A DNA stretch of 49,432 bases, taken from positions 1-49,432 of the forward strand of contig JADKKV010000001.1 of the NCBI GenBank assembly GCA_016720345.1, read 5' to 3'. Below, in pieces: positions 1 through 13,518 of the stretch. The translations under genes were made by a program, and so were the position numbers. The notes beneath the pieces were generated by a model. The model was not told the DNA's origin. It did not search any database and saw only the letters and a program-made list of their open reading frames with translations. The stretch's first letter is position 1. Each line of letters begins with the position of its first letter. Source of the DNA: Thermomonas sp. Lineage in GTDB: Bacteria; Pseudomonadota; Gammaproteobacteria; Xanthomonadales; Xanthomonadaceae.

Positions 1-2213
1 GGTGGCGACCTTCGTCCAGCACGGCTTGTGCCTGGGGTGACAATGTCAGCCCTTCGATGTACTGCGCCATGAATTCGGACTCGAAGCGGCCCGAGGCCCC
101 GACGTCCTGCTCGGTGAAGGGAATGAAGTGGTTTACCAGCGACCAGGTCCTGCCGTTCCATTCCAGGCCGTCAGCACCGGCGGTGAGATTGGAGCCGTTG
201 AACAGCATCCAGATCAGGCAGTCGGACTTGAAATCGTCCGTCAATGCGCCGGTGGGCTGGAGGAACTGGTCGCGGTCGTTGAGCCAGGTGGGTTTGATCA
301 GGCGACGGACGGTGAATACGACGGCGGCCTGCCAGAGATTCTGTCCGGTCACGAAGAACGCCCCGGCGTTACCGTATCCAGAGGACAAGAGCGCCGTCCC
401 TTTCGATGCATGCTGCAAATCATTTCCAAAAACCATCATGCTGCCGATGGCGTCGTCCGCCCATTTGTCTCCACGCACATCTTTTGAGCTGGTTGTTGGC
501 GTGATTGCGTTTTTAAGCGGCAAAGCTGGCTGCTTGTTCGAACGGGGACGAACGATCCACTCGGACAGGCGCGCCTGCTCTTCGGTGCGAGAGAACGCCT
601 TCTCTCCAAGCGCAAGGCCATCCTTGTCCAAGACCTTTGTCAGGACGATCTCAGCAGGATCATTCTTGCTGGTATCCCAAACCAAGAAGCCGATCGGAAA
701 ATCTCCTTTCAACCCGTCAAATGCCTTGCTGTGAACGACGAACCCGTTCAAGTACCTTGCCGTCCATCCACTCCTGAATTCGGTGAAATTCGGCGCGTTG
801 ACGTACTTGAGAGTGCTGAACATCGCAATCGTCGCATCCGGTAATTCGCGGCGGATACGAACAAGGAACTGCACAAACAACTCCCGCGCGGCATACCCCA
901 AACCGCCCATACTTTCTGCAATGCGTGTTTGCGCAACGCCTTGCTTGGCTTCCGCATTCTTGCCATTGGCCGCCGTGGTGTTGTCCACGCTCATGGCCTC
1001 TGCGTACGGCGGATTCATCAGCACCAGAATTTTCTTCGCCCCCGCCTTGCCGGCCTTCGCATCCGCAATCGCCTGCCGCAGTTCCGCGGGCACCTTGTTC
1101 GTCAATGCATAGTCGATCTGCCCTTCGGGCGTGACATCGTCATTGAGATAGTCGTACTGGAACTTGTGCGCGGCCACGCAGGTGCGACTGGCCTTCATCA
1201 CGTCGACATCCGCCTGGTCCAGCGTGCTCATGAAGACGTTGCGATGGTTGGAATGCTTCACTTCCAGATTGCCCACGCCGCAGCACATGTCCCACACGAT
1301 GTAGTCTTTTTGCCAGTTCTTGCCCAGCGTCTCGGCCAGTAGGTCGTAGGCCTTGTCCACGATGTGCAGCGGGGTATAGAACGCCCTTGAAGCTGCGCTC
1401 GTCCAGCGGCAGCAGGCTGTCGCGCCGCTCCAGCAGGTAGGCGCGGTGCTCCTCCTCCGGCGGGCGGTGATAGATCGCCCAGAAGTTGCGGTAGCCCTTG
1501 TCGCTGGACAGCTCGTAGGTCTTGCCGTTGAGCAGGAAGAGCGGCTGATCGCCCTCATGCAGCAGGCGCGCCGGCAGGTTGGCCATGGCCGCCTTGCTGC
1601 CGTCGTGCATGATGTCGGCGAAGAACAGCAGCGCGTAGTCGACCTCGTCCACGCCCTCCAGCTCGCGCCCGATCATGTCCACCCACTTGTCGAACACCTG
1701 CCGCAGGTTGTCCGGGGTGATCGGCGTACGCACCAACTTGCCCGCCTTGATGGCGTGCTTGACCGCATCGATGAATTCCCGTTCGTGGCTGTCAAGCTTG
1801 TAAACGACGAAATGGGTTTCGATGTACGGCGCCATTTGCGCGGCAAAGGATCTCTGCAGCGCGACGCGCTCGATTTCCTTCACCTTCGACCCGGACTTCG
1901 GCCATTTGATCGCTGTGTCGGCCAACAGGGGAAACGCCTTGGCCGTTTCCATCAACGCGGCCTTCTCGCGATCGATCACCGCGAGGAACGGGGGAATGGT
2001 TTCGCCCTTCTTGCGCGCGTCCTGCACGTAGCACAGGAGCTGCGCGAACATCACCACCGGAGGCGTCGGGGCCTCCTTTGCTTCGAACCAGATTTCCTCG
2101 GTGCGGATATCGACCAGGCCCTTGTTGTATTTCTGCAGGCCGAGCGCCTTGATGTAGGCGTCCTTGACGTCCTCTTCGGTCCGGGCAAGACCGAGTGCTT
2201 TTGTCAGGCTCAT
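1..2213 (-). pseudogene. N6-adenine DNA methylase (type IIG-like restriction-modification), frameshifted and cut by the window edge
   Basis: Seen: from ATG 2213 (AAGGA five bases upstream) a frame runs for about 277 residues to SFKG near 1383. It then continues only after a one-base register change at about 1382, in a second frame open without a stop to position 2. After the shift the protein reads FYTP, then DMCCGVGNLE (1262-1291, SAM-binding motif I) and NPPY (1004-1015, motif IV of N6-adenine methylases). The N-terminal part has VDIRTEEIWFEAK, which could be a PD-(D/E)XK nuclease core; that is inference. Known: methylase plus an N-terminal nuclease in one chain is the type IIG plan. The gene would exceed 735 residues. 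The unshifted frame ends at 1140. The right part (1-1000) looks less GC-rich than its neighbours, which suggests transfer. It follows icmF by 18 bases. A sequencing error at 1382 is possible, in which case the gene is intact. Confidence 0.75.
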
Positions 2214-2231: not shown

Positions 2232-5200
2232 TTACATATTCCGCCGATACTCCCCACCCACATCGTACAACGCATGCGAGATCTGCCCGAGGCTATGCGT
2301 CTTAACCGCCTCCATCAACGCCGCAAACACATTCCTGCGATCCCGCGCCGTCTGCTGCAGATACCCGAGCCCGTGACCATCATGGGCCTCGACCTCGACC
2401 ACCTCGTCCGCATCCGCCATATGCGAATGCGAGGTCTCGCCTGACGGCGCCAGCGCGTTGCGCGCCCGCTGCCAGTTGGCCACGTTGGCGATCTGCTGGC
2501 CCTTCTCTTCGGAGGTCGAGCGGATCAGCTCGATCTCGGTGGCGATCTCGCCGGCGTGTTCCTTCGGCAGGAAGGTGTTGACGCCCACCAGCGGCAGGCT
2601 GCCGTCGTGCTTCTTGTGCTCGTAGTACAGCGACTCTTCCTGGATCTTGCCGCGCTGGTACATGGTGTCCATCGCGCCCAGCACGCCGCCGCGCTCGCTG
2701 ATGGCCTCGAACTCCCTGTAGACCGCTTCCTCCACCAGGTCGGTGAGGTAGTCCACGGCGAAGCTGCCCTGCCAGGGGTTCTCGATGAAGTTGAGCCCCA
2801 GTTCCTTGTTGATGATCATCTGGATGGCCACCGCGCGGCGCACGCTTTCCTCGGTGGGCGTGGTGATGGCTTCGTCGTAGGCGTTGGTGTGCAGGCTGTT
2901 GCAGTTGTCGAACAGCGCGTACAGCGCCTGCAGCGTGGTGCGGATGTCGTTGAACTGGATCTCCTGCGCGTGCAGGGAGCGGCCGCTGGTCTGGATGTGG
3001 TACTTCATCATCTGGCTGCGGCTGGACGCGCCGTAGCGCTCGCGCATGGCGCGCGCCCAGATGCGGCGGGCCACGCGGCCGATCACGGTGTACTCCGGGT
3101 CCATGCCGTTGCTGAAGAAGAACGACAGGTTGGGCGCGAAGTCGTCGATCTTCATGCCGCGCGCCAGGTAGTACTCCACGATGGTGAAGCCGTTGCTCAG
3201 GGTGAAGGCGAGCTGGCTGATCGGGTTCGCCCCGGCCTCGGCGATGTGGTAGCCGGAGATGCTCACCGAATAGAAATTGCGGACGGCGTTGTCCACGAAG
3301 TACTGCTGGATGTCGCCCATCATCCGCAGCGCGAACTCGGTGCTGAAGATGCAGGTGTTCTGCGCCTGGTCTTCCTTGAGGATGTCCGCCTGCACGGTGC
3401 CGCGCACGGTGCTGAGCGTCTGCGCCTTGATGCGGGCGTAGGTCTCGGCATCGACCAGCTGGTCGCCGGACACGCCGAGCAGGCCGAGGCCCAGGCCGTC
3501 GTTGGTCGGCGGCAGCTCGCCCGAGTACTGCGGGCGCACGTGGCCCTTGAACAATTCGTCCAGCTTGGCTTGCGCGGCGGCCCAGCGGGCGTCGTCGGCC
3601 TTCAGGTATTTCTCCACCTGCTGGTCGATGGCGCAGTTCATGAACATCGCCAGGATCATCGGCGCCGGGCCGTTGATGGTCATCGACACGCTGGTGCTGG
3701 GTGCGCACAGGTCGAAGCCGGAGTACAGCTTCTTCATGTCGTCCAGGGTGGGGATGTTGACCCCGGAGTTGCCGATCTTGCCGTAGATGTCCGGGCGCTT
3801 TGCTGGGTCTTCGCCGTACAGGGTCACGCTGTCGAAGGCGGTGGACAGGCGCGCGGCGGGCTGGCCGACGCTGAGGTAATGGAAGCGGCGGTTGGTGCGC
3901 TCCGGCGTGCCCTCGCCCGCGAACATGCGGATCGGGTCTTCGCCGGTGCGGCGGTACGGATACACGCCGCCGGTGTACGGGTAGCTGCCCGGCAGGTTTT
4001 CCTTGCCAAGGAAGGTCAACAGCTCGCCCCAGCTGCGGTAGGTGGGCGCGGCGATCTTCGGGATCGGCTGGTGGCTGAGCGAGGTGCGGTAGTTGTCGAC
4101 GCGGATGGTCTTGTCGCGGACCTGGTATTCGGTGACTTCGTCGGTGATCGACTTCAGGCGTGCGGGCCATTCGCGCAGCAGCTTGAGGGAGTCGTTGCCG
4201 AGGGACTGGACGGCGTCGTTGTAGCGCTGGCGCAGGGTGAGGAGGGTCTTGTCGGTGCAGGAGCCGGCCATGCCCGCGATCTCGGGGGCCGCGGAATCGC
4301 GCCCATGGGGCGCTCCTACGAGATCATCGGCGGCGTAGAGGTCAAGCTGCTTCGGCAGCGCCGCATCGCCGATGTCCTGCAACGCCTGCCACAGCGATTG
4401 CGCGCGGTCGGCGATCTCGGCCTGGGTCTCGATGCGGCGGTTGATCGCGCGGCCCTGCTCGGCGATCTCGGCCAGGTAGCGCACGCGTGCGCCGGGGATC
4501 AGCACGGTGGCGCGCGGTTCCCTGAGGCTGGTGTCGATGTTCGGGACCAGCGAAAAGGGGCCAGAGTCATGTTTCCGGTCGGCGATGCCAGCAGGGTCAT
4601 TTTCCTCGGCCGAAAAATGACTCTGGCCCCTTTTCACCAGCTTCTCGCGCAGCAGGCGGCACAGGTTGGCGAACATCCAGCTGATGCCGGGGTCGTTGAA
4701 CTGGCTGGCGATGGTGGGATACACCGGCACGTCTTCGTCGGCGGTCTGGAAGGCGACGCGGTTGCGCTTCCACTGCTTGCGGATGTCGCGCAGCGCGTCT
4801 TCGGCGCCGCGCTTGTCGTACTTGTTGAGCACGATCAGTTCGGCGAAGTCGATCATGTCGATCTTCTCCAGCTGGCTGGCCGCGCCGTAGTCGCTGGTCA
4901 TCACGTACATCGGGAAATCGACCAGGTCCACGATCTCCGAATCGCTCTGGCCGATGCCGGCGGTTTCCACGATCACCAGGTCATAGCCCAGCGACTTGAG
5001 GAAGCCGATGCAGTCCTTGAGCACCGCGTTGGTCGCCACGTTCTGCCGGCGGGTGGCCATCGAGCGCATGTACACGCGATGGCTGCGCAGCGAGTTCATG
5101 CGGATGCGGTCGCCCAGCAGCGCGCCACCGGTGCGGCGGCGGGTGGGATCCACGCTGATCACCGCGATGTGCATCTTCGGGAAGCTGGCGAGGAAGCGGT

Positions 5201-5936
5201 TGAGCAGTTCGTCGGTCACCGACGACTTGCCGGCGCCGCCGGTGCCGGTGATGCCGATCACCGGGGTCTTGCCGCCGGCCAGCTGCCACTGCTTGCGCAG
5301 GCGCGCGAGTTCGGCGTCGGCGTAGTCGCCGTCCTCGATGGCGGACAGCACGCGGCCGATGGCGATTTCGTCGGCCATGCCGGGGGAAAAGGGGTCAGAG
5401 TCATGTTTTCGGTCGTGACTCGTCGACTGGTCGTTGCCTGCGACCGAAAAATGACTCTGACCCCTTTTCCCTCTTCCCTCGCCGGCACGCGTCACCACGT
5501 CCTCGATCATCTCCACCAGCCCCATCTTCATGCCGTCGTTGGGGTGGTAGATGCGCTCGACGCCGTAGGCTTCGAGCTCGCGGATTTCCTCGGGAGTAAT
5601 CGTGCCGCCGCCGCCGGCGAACACCCGGATGTGGCCGGCGTCGTGCTCGCGCAACATGTCGACCATGTACTTCAGGTACTCGACGTGGCCGCCCTGGTAG
5701 CTGGACAGCGCGATGCCGTCGGCGTCTTCCTGCAACGCGGCGCGGACCACGTCCTCGACCGAGCGGTTGTGGCCCAGGTGCACCACTTCCGCGCCCTGCG
5801 CCTGGATCAGCCGGCGCATGATGTTGATCGCGGCGTCGTGGCCGTCGAACAGGCTGGCGGCGGTGACGAAGCGCAGCGGGGTCGCTTCGGCGTTCTGCTG
5901 CGGGAGATTCGCGGCGGGGGTGCTCATGGGGCGCAT
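2232..5936 (-). CDS. icmF: Fused isobutyryl-CoA mutase (IcmF) with three in-frame repeat insertions
   Basis: Adenosylcobalamin enzyme interconverting isobutyryl-CoA and n-butyryl-CoA, with its own GTPase chaperone. Domains in order: B12-binding domain with SLFDGHD (His33 would be the lower cobalt ligand); MeaB-like P-loop GTPase with GTGGAGKSS (Lys237) and NKYD; then the mutase TIM barrel with [12 protein letters not shown] and TNRRFHYLS. The order B12-GTPase-mutase separates IcmF from methylmalonyl-CoA mutase. At about 1234 residues it is longer than usual for the family (about 1060-1120). Most of the excess is three repeat-derived peptides at residues about 156-184, 434-462 and 540-560, all in interdomain linkers. 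The start could be ATG 5936 or ATG 5927; neither has a strong Shine-Dalgarno. The only close downstream gene is the broken methylase. A role in branched acyl-CoA metabolism fits the leucine genes further right. Confidence 0.92.
4257..4319 (-). repeat. 63-nt REPIN-like element C inside icmF
   Basis: Two inverted 24-nt REP-like units: GCAGGAGCCGGCCATGCC with tail CGCGAT (4257-4280) facing ATCGCGCCCATGGGGCGC with tail TCCTAC (4296-4319), 15 nt apart. The 63 nt add 21 codons in frame ([20 protein letters not shown]) to the linker before the mutase barrel. One arm is identical over 24 nt to the intergenic copy at 13452-13475, and the other differs by one base. Confidence 0.8.
4552..4635 (-). repeat. 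84-nt palindromic element B inside icmF
   Basis: Second copy of element A, the same 84 nt and the same phase, encoding KRGQSHFS, a different middle and RKHDSGPFS. It lies between the GTPase and mutase domains. Base 10 is C here and T in element A, and the paired base in the other arm changes with it (G for A), so the stem is kept. The central 25-30 bases differ between copies. Confidence 0.85.
5386..5469 (-). repeat. 84-nt palindromic element A inside icmF
   Basis: Both ends match as an inverted repeat: GAAAAGGGGTCAGAGTCAT opens and ATGACTCTGACCCCTTTTC closes the unit, with the arms reaching CGGTCG/CGACCG apart from one bulged base. The length is 84 nt, so it adds 28 codons without shifting the frame. 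It encodes KRGQSHFS, a variable middle, then RKHDSDPFS, between the B12-binding and GTPase domains. It matches element B in length, ends and reading phase. Confidence 0.85.
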
Positions 5937-6001
5937 CCACAATGTTTCAGGTGATGCGCGATTGTAACGCGGGGGTCCGGTGGCCCTCCGTCCCCGGCCG
6001 T

Positions 6002-6035: not shown

Positions 6036-8036
6036 TTACTTCACTTCGTCGAACACGTACTCGTGCTGGCCGTCGCGCACCACCAGCCTGCGCGCGCCGT
6101 CGCTGTCGGCGCGCACGAACAGGAAGCCGATCGCCACCGGATCGATGGTCATGAAGGCCAGGCTGCCATCGGGCTGCGGCATGGTCGCCACTTCGGAGCT
6201 GAAGGCGCCGACATCGAACCAGGCCCTGCCGTCCTTGCGGGTCACCGCCAGCTCGCCCAGCGCGGCGTTGCGGTAGCGCGGTGCCAGCGCGTCCAGCGCC
6301 GTGGCGTCCGCCGGCCACTGGAGCAGCTTGACGAAGGCATCGAAGCCCTCGCGGTTGGCCTTGACCGTGGCGGCGGCGGCGGCCTGGGCCTGCGGGTTGC
6401 CATCGAACATCAGCTCCATCAGCCGGCGCTTGAACGGGCCGCGCATGTACACGCCTTCGTCTGCATTGGTCAGGATCACCGCGCCGACCTTCTGCGCCGG
6501 CCACCACATCATGTTGGAGTGGAAGCCGCCCATGTCGCCGCCGTGGTCGATCACGGTGACGCCGTCGCTGTTGTCCACCCCCAGCGCCATCGCGTAATGG
6601 CGGTCCACGCCGGTCGCGATCTGCGGCTCGCGGCGCTGCAGCAGCGCGGCTTCGCCGATGTAGCGCTGGCCGCCGGGCAACACCCCGTGGTCGATCTCCA
6701 TCTGCACGTACCTGAGCAGGTCGTTGACCGTGCTCCACGCGGCGCCCGCCGGGCGCGAGGCCTTGATGGTGTCGTTCAGGCCCATGTCCATGACCTGGAC
6801 CTTGTGCGCGATGTCGTAGCCGTGCGGCGCGGCGTAATTGCCGGTCTGCGCCCGGTCGTAGTCGAAGGTGGTATTTCGCATGCCCAGCGGATCGAATACC
6901 AGCGACTGCATCGCCTTGTCGTAACCGGCACCCAGCTCCATGCCCGGATGCGCGACCTGGCCGCCGATGAAACCGGCCGCCGCCGCCATCGGGTTCGAAT
7001 ACTGGAACAGTTCCCCGAAGCCGCTGGTCGGCTGCATGGTGCCCAGCGTGGCCATCACGCTCTGCGGGGTCTGCTTTTCGCCCTCGAACAGCCATTCGTA
7101 GTCCTGGCGCGGCACGCCGGTGCAGGCGCAGATCAGGTGCTTCACCAGCACCTGGTCACTGGTGGCGGTGTCGCCCAGCTTGAAGGCCGGATACACGTCC
7201 CGGGCGCGCGCGTTCCAGTCCAGCTTGCCGGCATCGACCAGCTTGGCCAGCATCAGGGTGGTCAGCGCCTTGGTGTTGGAAGCGATCATGAAACGGGTGT
7301 CGCCATCCACCGGGTCCGGCTTGCCGAGATCGCGCATGCCGTAGCCGCGCGACAGCACCACCTTGCCGTCCTGCACGATGCCGATGGCCACGCCCGGCAC
7401 TTCGAAGTCCTTGCGCATCTGCTCGATGAACTCGCTGACCTGCTGCAGGCGCGCGGCATCCAGCTTGTGCGCGGTGCGCCCGGCGAAGGTCTCGCGGGTG
7501 TAGCCGGCCGGCTGGAAGCGCTGGTTGATCTTGGCGAACTGCGAGCCGCGCTTCTCGGCAATGGCCTGGTCCACGTCCATCGCGATCACCGTCCAGTGCT
7601 TGTCCTTGCGATAGGCCGCAGAGTTGACCACCCGCTTGGCGTTCGCCGGGATGTCGTAATCGTAGAAGCGGCGCTGCTCCCAGCCGTCGCGCGGCGCGGC
7701 ATCGGTGGCGACCAGCAGTTTCGGCGTGAGCCCGAGCACCTTCCACGCTTCGGCGACCGCCTCGTCCGCGGTCGCGGCGGGGGTATCGACGATCGCGGTG
7801 CGCGAGCCGTCCGCTTCGGGCGGCATGATGATCACCGCGTTGCCTTGCACCCTGGTGGTCCATCCCGCCGGCAGCAGGAAGGTCGCCCTGCCGCCTGGCG
7901 TGGTCACCGACTGCTCCGCGCCGGCCGCGGTCGCCTGCGGCTCGGCGGCGTTTGCGGTCAGCGGCAGCAACGAGGGAACCGCCAGCGAAAGCGATATCGC
8001 GAGGGCCAGGACGGCCTTGTCGAACGAAGGGTGCAT
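6036..8036 (-). CDS. Secreted beta-lactamase-fold serine hydrolase (class C/DD-peptidase-like)
   Basis: Exported hydrolase of the serine beta-lactamase-like family, 666 residues. It starts at ATG 8036, with GGAGAG eight bases upstream and a signal peptide ending near ANA (about residue 34). Residues 40-190 form an extra N-terminal domain of unknown role. The catalytic domain runs from about 210 to 560: Ser253-x-x-Lys256 in SNTK, Tyr346-Ser-Asn348 (YxN box), and HGG at about 498 in place of the KTG box. About 100 C-terminal residues follow, as in other esterase/peptidase members. These motifs support an active serine enzyme, but the substrate cannot be read from sequence; peptidase, esterase or D-aminopeptidase are all possible. 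It is divergent from the ChaN-like gene, with 118 bases between them. Confidence 0.85.
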   Translation of the reverse strand: MHPSFDKAVLALAISLSLAVPSLLPLTANAAEPQATAAGAEQSVTTPGGRATFLLPAGWTTRVQGNAVIIMPPEADGSRTAIVDTPAATADEAVAEAWKVLGLTPKLLVATDAAPRDGWEQRRFYDYDIPANAKRVVNSAAYRKDKHWTVIAMDVDQAIAEKRGSQFAKINQRFQPAGYTRETFAGRTAHKLDAARLQQVSEFIEQMRKDFEVPGVAIGIVQDGKVVLSRGYGMRDLGKPDPVDGDTRFMIASNTKALTTLMLAKLVDAGKLDWNARARDVYPAFKLGDTATSDQVLVKHLICACTGVPRQDYEWLFEGEKQTPQSVMATLGTMQPTSGFGELFQYSNPMAAAAGFIGGQVAHPGMELGAGYDKAMQSLVFDPLGMRNTTFDYDRAQTGNYAAPHGYDIAHKVQVMDMGLNDTIKASRPAGAAWSTVNDLLRYVQMEIDHGVLPGGQRYIGEAALLQRREPQIATGVDRHYAMALGVDNSDGVTVIDHGGDMGGFHSNMMWWPAQKVGAVILTNADEGVYMRGPFKRRLMELMFDGNPQAQAAAAATVKANREGFDAFVKLLQWPADATALDALAPRYRNAALGELAVTRKDGRAWFDVGAFSSEVATMPQPDGSLAFMTIDPVAIGFLFVRADSDGARRLVVRDGQHEYVFDEVK

Positions 8037-8154: not shown

Positions 8155-8961
8155 ATGCCCATGCTGCGTCCCGTCCCCGCCATTGCCCTGCTTGTCGCCC
8201 TGGCCGCGTGCCGGCACGCGCCGGAGCCCGCGCCGCAGGTGCTGTTGCTGGGCGAGGTGCACGACAACGCCGCCGGCCACGCTGCCCGCGCGGACCTGCT
8301 GCGCGAACGGATCGAAGCCGGCTGGCGGCCGGCGATCGCGATGGAGCAGTTCGACACCGCCCAGCAGGCCGCGCTGGACGCGGCGATGGCGAGCTGTGCG
8401 GATGCCGAGTGCGTGGTCGCGAAGGTGGCGCCGGCGAAGTCCAGTTGGACCTGGGCCCACTACACGCCGGTCATCGCGCTGGCCCTGCAGTACAAGTTGC
8501 CGCTGCGCGCGGCCAACCTGTCGCGTGCGGATGCTTCAAAGATCGTCAAGGGCGGTTTCGCCGATGGCTTGCCTGCGGACGTCATCGCGCGCTACCAGTT
8601 GGACGCCCTGCCCGGCCCGCTGCTGGCCGCGCAGGAAACCGAAGTGCGCGACAGCCATTGCGGGGCGCTTCCGGAACCGCTGGTGTCGCCGATGGCGAAG
8701 GCGCAGATCGCGCGCGACGTGGTGATGGCGGAGACGCTGCGCGCGCATGCCGCCAATGGCGTGGTCCTGATCGCCGGCAACGGCCACGTGCGCACCGATA
8801 TCGGGGTGCCGTTCTGGCTGCGCCGCGACGCGCTGGCGTCGCACGCGACCGGTTTCCTCGAACCCGGCTCTGACGCCACCGGATTCGACGCGGTGCGTCG
8901 CATCCCGGTGCAGGCGCGTCCGGATCCGTGCGCCGGGTTCAGGCCGCCCACGCCCGGTTGA
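8155..8961 (+). CDS. ChaN-like haem-binding lipoprotein
   Basis: Predicted outer- or periplasm-facing lipoprotein of 268 residues in the ChaN/Tiki superfamily (haem-binding uptake lipoprotein in Campylobacter; erythromycin-esterase-like fold). A short signal sequence ends in lipobox LAAC near residue 19. Family signatures are LLGEVHDN early, the AIAMEQFD segment, and NGHVRTDIGVP near the C terminus. ATG 8155 and ATG 8161 are both possible starts; no strong ribosome-binding site separates them. It stands alone between the divergent hydrolase and the diguanylate cyclase. Haem binding is known for only some family members, so the function here is inference; an iron/haem theme is also seen at the TonB receptor near 37-39 kb. 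Confidence 0.8.
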   Translation: MPMLRPVPAIALLVALAACRHAPEPAPQVLLLGEVHDNAAGHAARADLLRERIEAGWRPAIAMEQFDTAQQAALDAAMASCADAECVVAKVAPAKSSWTWAHYTPVIALALQYKLPLRAANLSRADASKIVKGGFADGLPADVIARYQLDALPGPLLAAQETEVRDSHCGALPEPLVSPMAKAQIARDVVMAETLRAHAANGVVLIAGNGHVRTDIGVPFWLRRDALASHATGFLEPGSDATGFDAVRRIPVQARPDPCAGFRPPTPG

Positions 8962-13451: not shown

Positions 13452-13518
13452 GTAGGAGCGCCCCATGGGCGCGATCCGAGGCGTCATCGGATCAATCGCG
13501 GGCATGGCCCGCTCCTGC
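13452..13518 (+). repeat. 67-nt intergenic REPIN (element D)
   Basis: GTAGGAGCGCCCCATGGGC with tail GCGAT (13452-13475) faces ATCGCGGGCATGGCCCGC with tail TCCTGC (13495-13518). They form an inverted pair of 24-nt REP-like units. It fills most of the gap between leucine dehydrogenase and isovaleryl-CoA dehydrogenase. It is the same family as element C inside icmF, with arms 24/24 and 23/24 identical. Confidence 0.85.

Follow-up and report, generated by a model that had tools for sequence, protein, structure and literature searches.

Palindromic repeats translated within bacterial genes are already known, both as in-frame repetitive extragenic palindromic (REP) sequences and as the palindromic elements of Rickettsia. 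Di Nocera, De Gregorio and Rocco (2013; PMC3733652), in the sections of their paper available to us, describe terminal inverted repeats (TIRs) that carry GGGGWSAS and lie next to tyrosine transposases, dimers of these TIRs, and two TIR families in S. maltophilia. The same sections report GTAG/CGTC REPs lying in frame, with recB REPs of X. campestris and X. oryzae at about one site, suggest flexible linkers as tolerant places, and treat the Rickettsia palindromic elements as palindromes that lie in a compatible frame within unrelated genes and are translated there (PMC3733652). Here we analyze a 49,432-nt stretch of Thermomonas sp. DNA (assembly GCA_016720345.1, contig JADKKV010000001.1, positions 1 to 49,432; hereafter the window), in which two 84-nt palindromes are translated within the gene icmF:

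2232..5942, minus strand: icmF, the host gene, encoding a fused isobutyryl-CoA mutase / G-protein chaperone (1236-aa open frame; NF045497, Pfam and 4xc6_A matches)
5386..5469, minus strand: element 1, an 84-nt palindrome of GGGGTCAG type translated in linker 1 (end-motif search, fold, sister-genome comparison)
4552..4635, minus strand: element 2, an 84-nt palindrome of GGGGCCAG type translated in linker 2 (end-motif search, fold, sister-genome comparison)

We consider it likely that these palindromes are non-autonomous mobile TIR dimers of a REP/IS200-like Y1 transposase, surviving where they encode a hydrophilic, disordered linker. Like the TIR dimers of TIRYT, they consist of two self-complementary TIRs set head to head as a palindrome; similar ends are found around Y1 genes, S. 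maltophilia is among the TIRYT hosts, and element 1 (GGGGTCAG) fits GGGGWSAS, whereas element 2 (GGGGCCAG) departs from it at W (PMC3733652). The setting differs, since the available sections place TIRs around transposase genes and elsewhere and describe translated copies for GTAG/CGTC REPs. Those intragenic REPs resemble our elements in lying in frame, often as dimers of 20–30 residues, with DNA-repair genes among their hosts; they belong to another repeat family, and the available sections mention neither icmF, ispA and yoaA nor a frame rule (PMC3733652). The GTAG tag is missing from the ends of the 84-nt elements and present in a third element of the window (4257–4319). The parallel with Rickettsia palindromic elements, drawn in a first-pass annotation of this DNA, extends to position and in-frame translation only; the Rickettsia elements come from Alphaproteobacteria and, according to that annotation, differ in sequence. 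To our knowledge, no transposase is linked to them. REPINs and RAYT REP elements are paired REPs that form short mobile hairpins, and the 84-nt elements share the paired short hairpin with them but lack the GTAG tag.

The first-pass annotation had described both copies as 84 nt long and inserted in the same frame and orientation within icmF, flanking the GTPase domain. Coordinates, length, frame and orientation were all reproduced, and the elements encode residues 158–186 and 435–463, between the B12-binding, MeaB and mutase domains. The product of 2232–5942 scores 1604.8 bits against NF045497 (isobutyryl-CoA mutase fused; cut-off 1500), contains the Pfam domains B12-binding (24–127), MeaB (213–395) and MM_CoA_mutase, and has 4xc6_A as its nearest solved chain; judged by these matches, the gene is the B12-dependent fused isobutyryl-CoA mutase and not the secretion protein of the same name. 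Both elements have the ends GAAAAGGGGYCAG...CTGRCCCCTTTTC, and their end motif has four matches in the window at up to three mismatches (0.01 expected). Their RNA folds reach −50.9 and −48.4 kcal/mol (z −9.1 and −8.2), values equaled by none of 200 shuffles, and translation in the icmF frame yields two 28-residue peptides. The centers of the two copies differ, as had been noted, yet a loose peptide pattern (..ND....DRKHDS..) is common, by eye, to these and other genus copies of the CATTTTTC subfamily. Across 93 genus hits (186 arms), most arms keep the three As at positions −4 to −2 ahead of GGGG, and there is no conservation from −6 outward; the 84-nt boundary agrees with this. An AlphaFold model covering 514 shared residues (from a 32-row alignment) is of moderate overall confidence (mean pLDDT 66). 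Residues 138–159 and 418–439 form the two longest stretches with pLDDT <50, and the elements lie at model residues 135–163 and 412–440 (offset 23 from the window protein); linkers 1 and 2 are predicted to be disordered.

The same ends are dispersed well beyond icmF. The organism's own 2.66-Mb genome (G000) holds 34 ends with up to three mismatches (none in a reversed-pattern control), and 22 of 25 genus genomes have at least one end-like match, some of them a single one (six over all 25 in the reversed control). The strict pair pattern gave 14 pairs in the own genome (reversed control, one), from which C3:166597 was dropped as a mis-pairing of different ends. The 13 remaining strict copies of this GGGGYCAG palindrome family comprise two in icmF, one in ispA (C1:354293) and ten not called coding; a degenerate copy at C1:373067 sits just upstream of an apparent minus-strand start codon. 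In the genus, a codon-usage classifier that needs a score >0.2 on both sides, and that misses true cases (L255, the ispA copy of G024), placed 11 of 90 non-icmF elements in genes, a lower bound (the 90 are 93 minus three overlapping or mis-paired rows). We dropped the idea that GTGAA-type elements never lie in genes: none of 41 was called in-gene in the strict census, but ispA of G023 holds one in frame. Copies thus occur both in and between genes in the own and related genomes, where the first-pass annotation had proposed to look for them, which supports the elements being dispersed repeats rather than ordinary protein sequence.

The repeat forms also bear on the stem. The first-pass annotation had pointed to stem position 10, where the copies differ (T-A versus C-G), as a double change that keeps the hairpin. 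The two pairs are as described; however, the C-G form (GGGGCCAG) makes up 12 of the 13 own strict copies, and the strict copies of relatives are mostly of the T-A form (GGGGTCAG; exceptions G008, G012 and G023), so that element 1 matches the prevailing form and element 2 the one typical of its own genome. Because element forms follow genome-wide repeat types, no selection on the hairpin is needed, and from their sequences the two icmF copies look like two generations of one repeat.

Comparison with sister genes shows empty, filled and swapped linkers. In G004 and G010, whose icmF products are 92–96% identical to that of the window in matched protein stretches, DNA alignment finds other palindromes in linker 1 (CGACTTTC in G004 and GGTGTCAGGGACA in G010, against CATTTTTC in the window), and among these three genes only that of the window has an element in linker 2. 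G009 has the native linker at both sites; the native peptide (e.g. LPVDKPHKVEF) is absent from the filled linkers, and therefore the element stands in for it. Ordinary, fast-evolving linker sequence that is palindromic by chance, the objection that the first-pass annotation had raised against itself, has next to no probability. Linker length and sequence do vary among the icmF orthologues compared, but element 2 is absent from the sister genes, fold z-scores run from −8 to −10, and the same ends recur between genes and in unrelated genes, copies outside icmF that refute this explanation.

A wider survey of icmF (genus genes plus 80 public loci) revealed that linkers 1 and 2 harbor at least seven palindrome families, namely five GGGGTCAG subfamilies (CATTTTTC, CACTTT, CGACTTT, GTTCAYTTT and GAACA), the GGTGTCAGGGACA family and GTAG REPs; one locus (L051) was counted among the occupants by motif alone, outside the palindrome list. 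An element occupies a linker in 35 of 100 rows of the icmF tree, or in 30 of 95 once the five rows recruited by their elements are set aside. In G023 (L297, G023:C15), tandem or nested GGGGTCAG elements stand in both icmF linkers (7804–7952 and 8716–8822), all in frame.

Gene-blind scans with arm-only patterns for two subfamilies, run on 395 sampled family genomes, returned 18 CATTTTTC elements in 13 genomes and 17 CACTTT elements in 12. The former lie in icmF linkers (9), ispA (3), hrpA (1), yoaA (1) and at gene ends (2), with one not called coding and one not fetched; the latter in icmF (6), hrpA (2), yoaA (1) and dsbD (1), with six not read through in a gene and one not fetched. Together, 24 of the 35 elements are in frame in genes, and 15 of the 35 are in icmF linkers. 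Host genes were named from flanking sequence for icmF and from NCBIfam for hrpA, yoaA, scpB and dsbD (L190, L200, L205, L253, L264, L268, L314, L315), with L220 and L222 named by likeness to such loci; ispA was named, presumptively, from a Pfam polyprenyl_synt match. The ispA loop that follows CGGQALDIDATG holds a CATTTTTC element in G000, G010 and G336, a genome of another genus (CGGQARDLAATG there), a GTGAAGTTTC-type element in G023, a short palindrome in G004 and a CACTTTTC-type element in G024. Apparent decayed remnants occupy it in G002 and G009; in 11 genus genomes the loop is short and native, and in G013 it is longer without recognizable ends (26 loci surveyed, six of them outside the loop pattern). 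By eye, one yoaA site is occupied in three genera (L205/L222, L268, L314) and one hrpA site in two (L200/L220, L264).

The CATTTTTC subfamily is thus found mainly in genes (14 of 18 elements). The first-pass annotation had suggested a mobile repeat tuned to be tolerated there, of which the dispersed repeat and a linked family of REP-like Y1 transposases stand and the tuning is not established: a filter on random insertions, acting on length, stops and hydrophilic frame, would suffice for the gene bias.

In-gene elements that are read through follow a strict frame rule. We compiled 41 distinct in-gene elements with intact GGGGYCAG...CTGRCCCC ends, counting the composite L199 twice. In all 41, the last C of CTGRCCCC ends a codon, which fixes the 3′ arm in the DSDP frame; for the 5′ arm, RGQS is used in 27 and GSES in 14, and GVRV never. 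Stop codons alone do not explain this, because 39 of the 41 have a second open coding-strand frame and, among 81 elements outside the in-gene calls, GVRV and RGQS are open equally often (in 72 and 73 of the 162 readings over both strands), with GSES open in 36. In element 1, the Kyte-Doolittle means of the 5′ arm are −1.12 and −0.86 in the chosen frames versus +0.18, and that of the 3′ arm is −2.41 in the chosen frame versus −0.24. We infer that the frame rule reflects selection on a translated hydrophilic peptide.

The first-pass annotation had proposed looking for a linked REP-associated Y1 transposase, and a REP-like Y1 family linked to the elements was indeed found. Y1 genes are present in 18 of the 25 genus genomes (the one in G007 is of IS200 type), with three in the own genome, and REP_Tyr_transpos is the best model for eight of nine Y1 proteins tested, the exception being the IS200-type L156. 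On contig C7 of the own genome, a Y1 gene is bounded by AAAAGGGGCCAGAGTCAATTACC-type inverted ends that have 17 nt, AAAAGGGGCCAGAGTCA, in common with element 2. Proximity points the same way. In all 11 genus genomes with both genes on one contig, a Y1 gene lies 2.0–5.5 kb downstream of icmF; in five genomes of three other genera (G088, G140, G161, G220 and G277), chosen as element carriers, the gap is 3.2–7.3 kb, with weak matches in G140 and G220 (24.8 and 24.7 bits) and with the gap not measurable or the genes on separate contigs in other carriers. The own contig C4 (L293) has two Y1 genes near its end, plus Y1 remnants, and matches DNA downstream of icmF in G010; going by this match, it probably adjoins the window. 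Strict elements within 10 kb of a Y1 gene number 15 of 82 versus 0.84 expected, seven of the 15 being icmF copies, in a count restricted to genomes with a Y1 match other than the own genome, whose 13 elements include none that close to a Y1 gene on one contig.

The element edges fit such an enzyme. None of 93 element pairs shows an edge repeat (target duplication) of 6 nt or more at the palindrome edge, as expected for Y1 enzymes. It is very unlikely that the elements are instead miniature inverted-repeat transposable elements (MITEs) of a DDE-type insertion sequence. They are short and palindromic and carry no gene of their own, as MITEs are, and GCTGGT stands at 4546–4551 and 4636–4641, exactly abutting both edges of element 2, but no such repeat occurs in the 93 other pairs or in 27 of 28 in-gene copies, and Y1 genes with like ends are present in the genus.

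Under the TIR-dimer reading, the elements would be head-to-head dimers of the TIRs of a Y1 tyrosine transposase, which would probably move them as single-stranded hairpins. Insertion sites would be numerous and more frequent in the vicinity of Y1 genes; in the genus, such genes often lie 2–5.5 kb downstream of icmF. In-gene copies would persist only with an open frame and hydrophilic translated arms, in flexible linkers and loops, where the element would serve as a disordered spacer of ~28 residues that replaces the native linker, and lineages would repeatedly gain, swap or lose elements at the same spots.

Several observations weigh against this reading. Movement by a Y1 transposase is our reconstruction, and no transposition was observed. 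The Y1 proteins score 57–75 bits against REP_Tyr_transpos, below its cut-off of 80; none of 48 Y1 loci (0/24 and 0/24) has a Y1 gene with exact CATTTTTC ends; and two of the 13 genomes that carry the CATTTTTC subfamily, G008 and G055, have no Y1 match. Proximity to Y1 genes was rejected as the sole cause of the hot spots, as the copies in ispA (G000, G010, G336), hrpA (G018, G263) and yoaA (G055) are not beside a Y1 match. The GCTGGT repeat of element 2, the one case among the 28 in-gene copies, is of a kind that a duplicating transposase could leave. As for the frame rule, translation enters two gene-end copies of the same element (L317, L319) in the GVRV frame and meets a stop inside the element, and the 41 in-gene elements are not all independent, hence no probability is attached to the count.

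A different account of the recurrent sites is in-place replacement, or “homing”, in which later elements replace a resident palindrome via shared ends, so that sites are inherited and the occupant turns over. We regard this as possible but doubtful. The presence of three different families at linker 1 of three sister species would fit, as would the nested or tandem copies in G023 and the ispA loop with different or decayed elements in G000, G004, G009, G010 and G023; on the icmF tree, these five group with Lysobacter sp. A03 in a single supported clade (the ispA comparison being without A03). Occupancy is also clustered on the 100-row icmF tree, which was built without the linkers: linker 1 requires 11 changes versus 13.3 when shuffled (13 of 500 shuffles as low) and linker 2 requires 19 versus 23.1 (10 of 500), in tests that include the five rows recruited by their elements, four of them at linker 2. 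Families at linker 1 show no clustering (10 changes versus 10.3 shuffled; 14 rows). Against replacement, the families among occupied linker 2 sites are clustered (10 changes versus 15.5 shuffled; 0 of 500), though four of these 26 rows were recruited by their elements; independent insertion and loss would yield much of the same picture, and no junction was caught in exchange. A bolder version, that the icmF linkers, the ispA loop, yoaA and hrpA are inherited landing pads where transposase-borne palindromes are exchanged in place in a fixed frame, is in our view rather speculative. If it were true, one class of mobile DNA would persist as an ever-renewed disordered peptide, a REP-like “homing” without a homing enzyme.

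The hairpin might instead be retained in icmF because it acts at the RNA level, for instance by pausing translation between domains, a reading that we judge very improbable. The elements do stand between domains, and 17 icmF copies keep 18–19 of the outer 19 pairs, but this pairing count rests on a search that requires the ends, 65 of 95 sampled icmF genes have no recognized element, the G002 ispA copy has no long hairpin while its frame is still open, and the paired change at position 10 tracks the genome-wide repeat form. No Rfam match reaches the gathering score; every match to positions 4000–6000 stays below threshold, and most are miRNA-like, as a strong hairpin would produce.

Relative to the earlier reports, what appears new are translated TIR dimers, their recurrence at the same icmF, ispA, yoaA and hrpA sites by different families, the frame rule, and the neighborhood of icmF and the transposase. 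Among the literature matches listed, no title concerned translated TIR dimers in icmF or ispA, in a search that mostly did not cover subscription journals, and an exact-sequence literature search with GGGGTCAGAGT gave, among the matches listed, none on bacterial repeats. By definition, REP-type repeats are called extragenic; the two subfamilies here have a large share of their copies inside conserved genes, in the same linkers across genera and, for read-through copies, under a strict frame rule. Disordered protein linkers look like recurrent homes for palindromic DNA of mobile type. The filled, swapped, decayed and empty sites offer a natural series for measuring how mobile DNA becomes protein and which features make a linker tolerant, and for asking whether Y1 transposases favor nearby targets or ones that are already filled. 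With solved structures available for a homologue, IcmF lends itself well to such tests.

Directly downstream of icmF, a 357-aa coding frame (1140–2213, minus strand) without a Pfam match is perhaps an island gene. The window also contains a third translated palindrome and its counterpart between genes:

4257..4319, minus strand: GTAG-type REP pair, the third translated element, in linker 3 of icmF (23-nt exact repeat with 13452–13474; alignment over both arms)
13452..13518, plus strand: intergenic counterpart of the GTAG-type REP pair (exact repeat and two-arm alignment)

In Lysobacterales icmF loci (e.g. L055, L064, L123 and L125), linker 3 holds many other in-frame, repeat-like peptides of the LPLSPTPLPQGERG, HPHPNPLPQAGEG and IPAKAGIQ..DSGFRRNDG types. 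This linker is most often 15 residues long and reaches 82 in the longest match.

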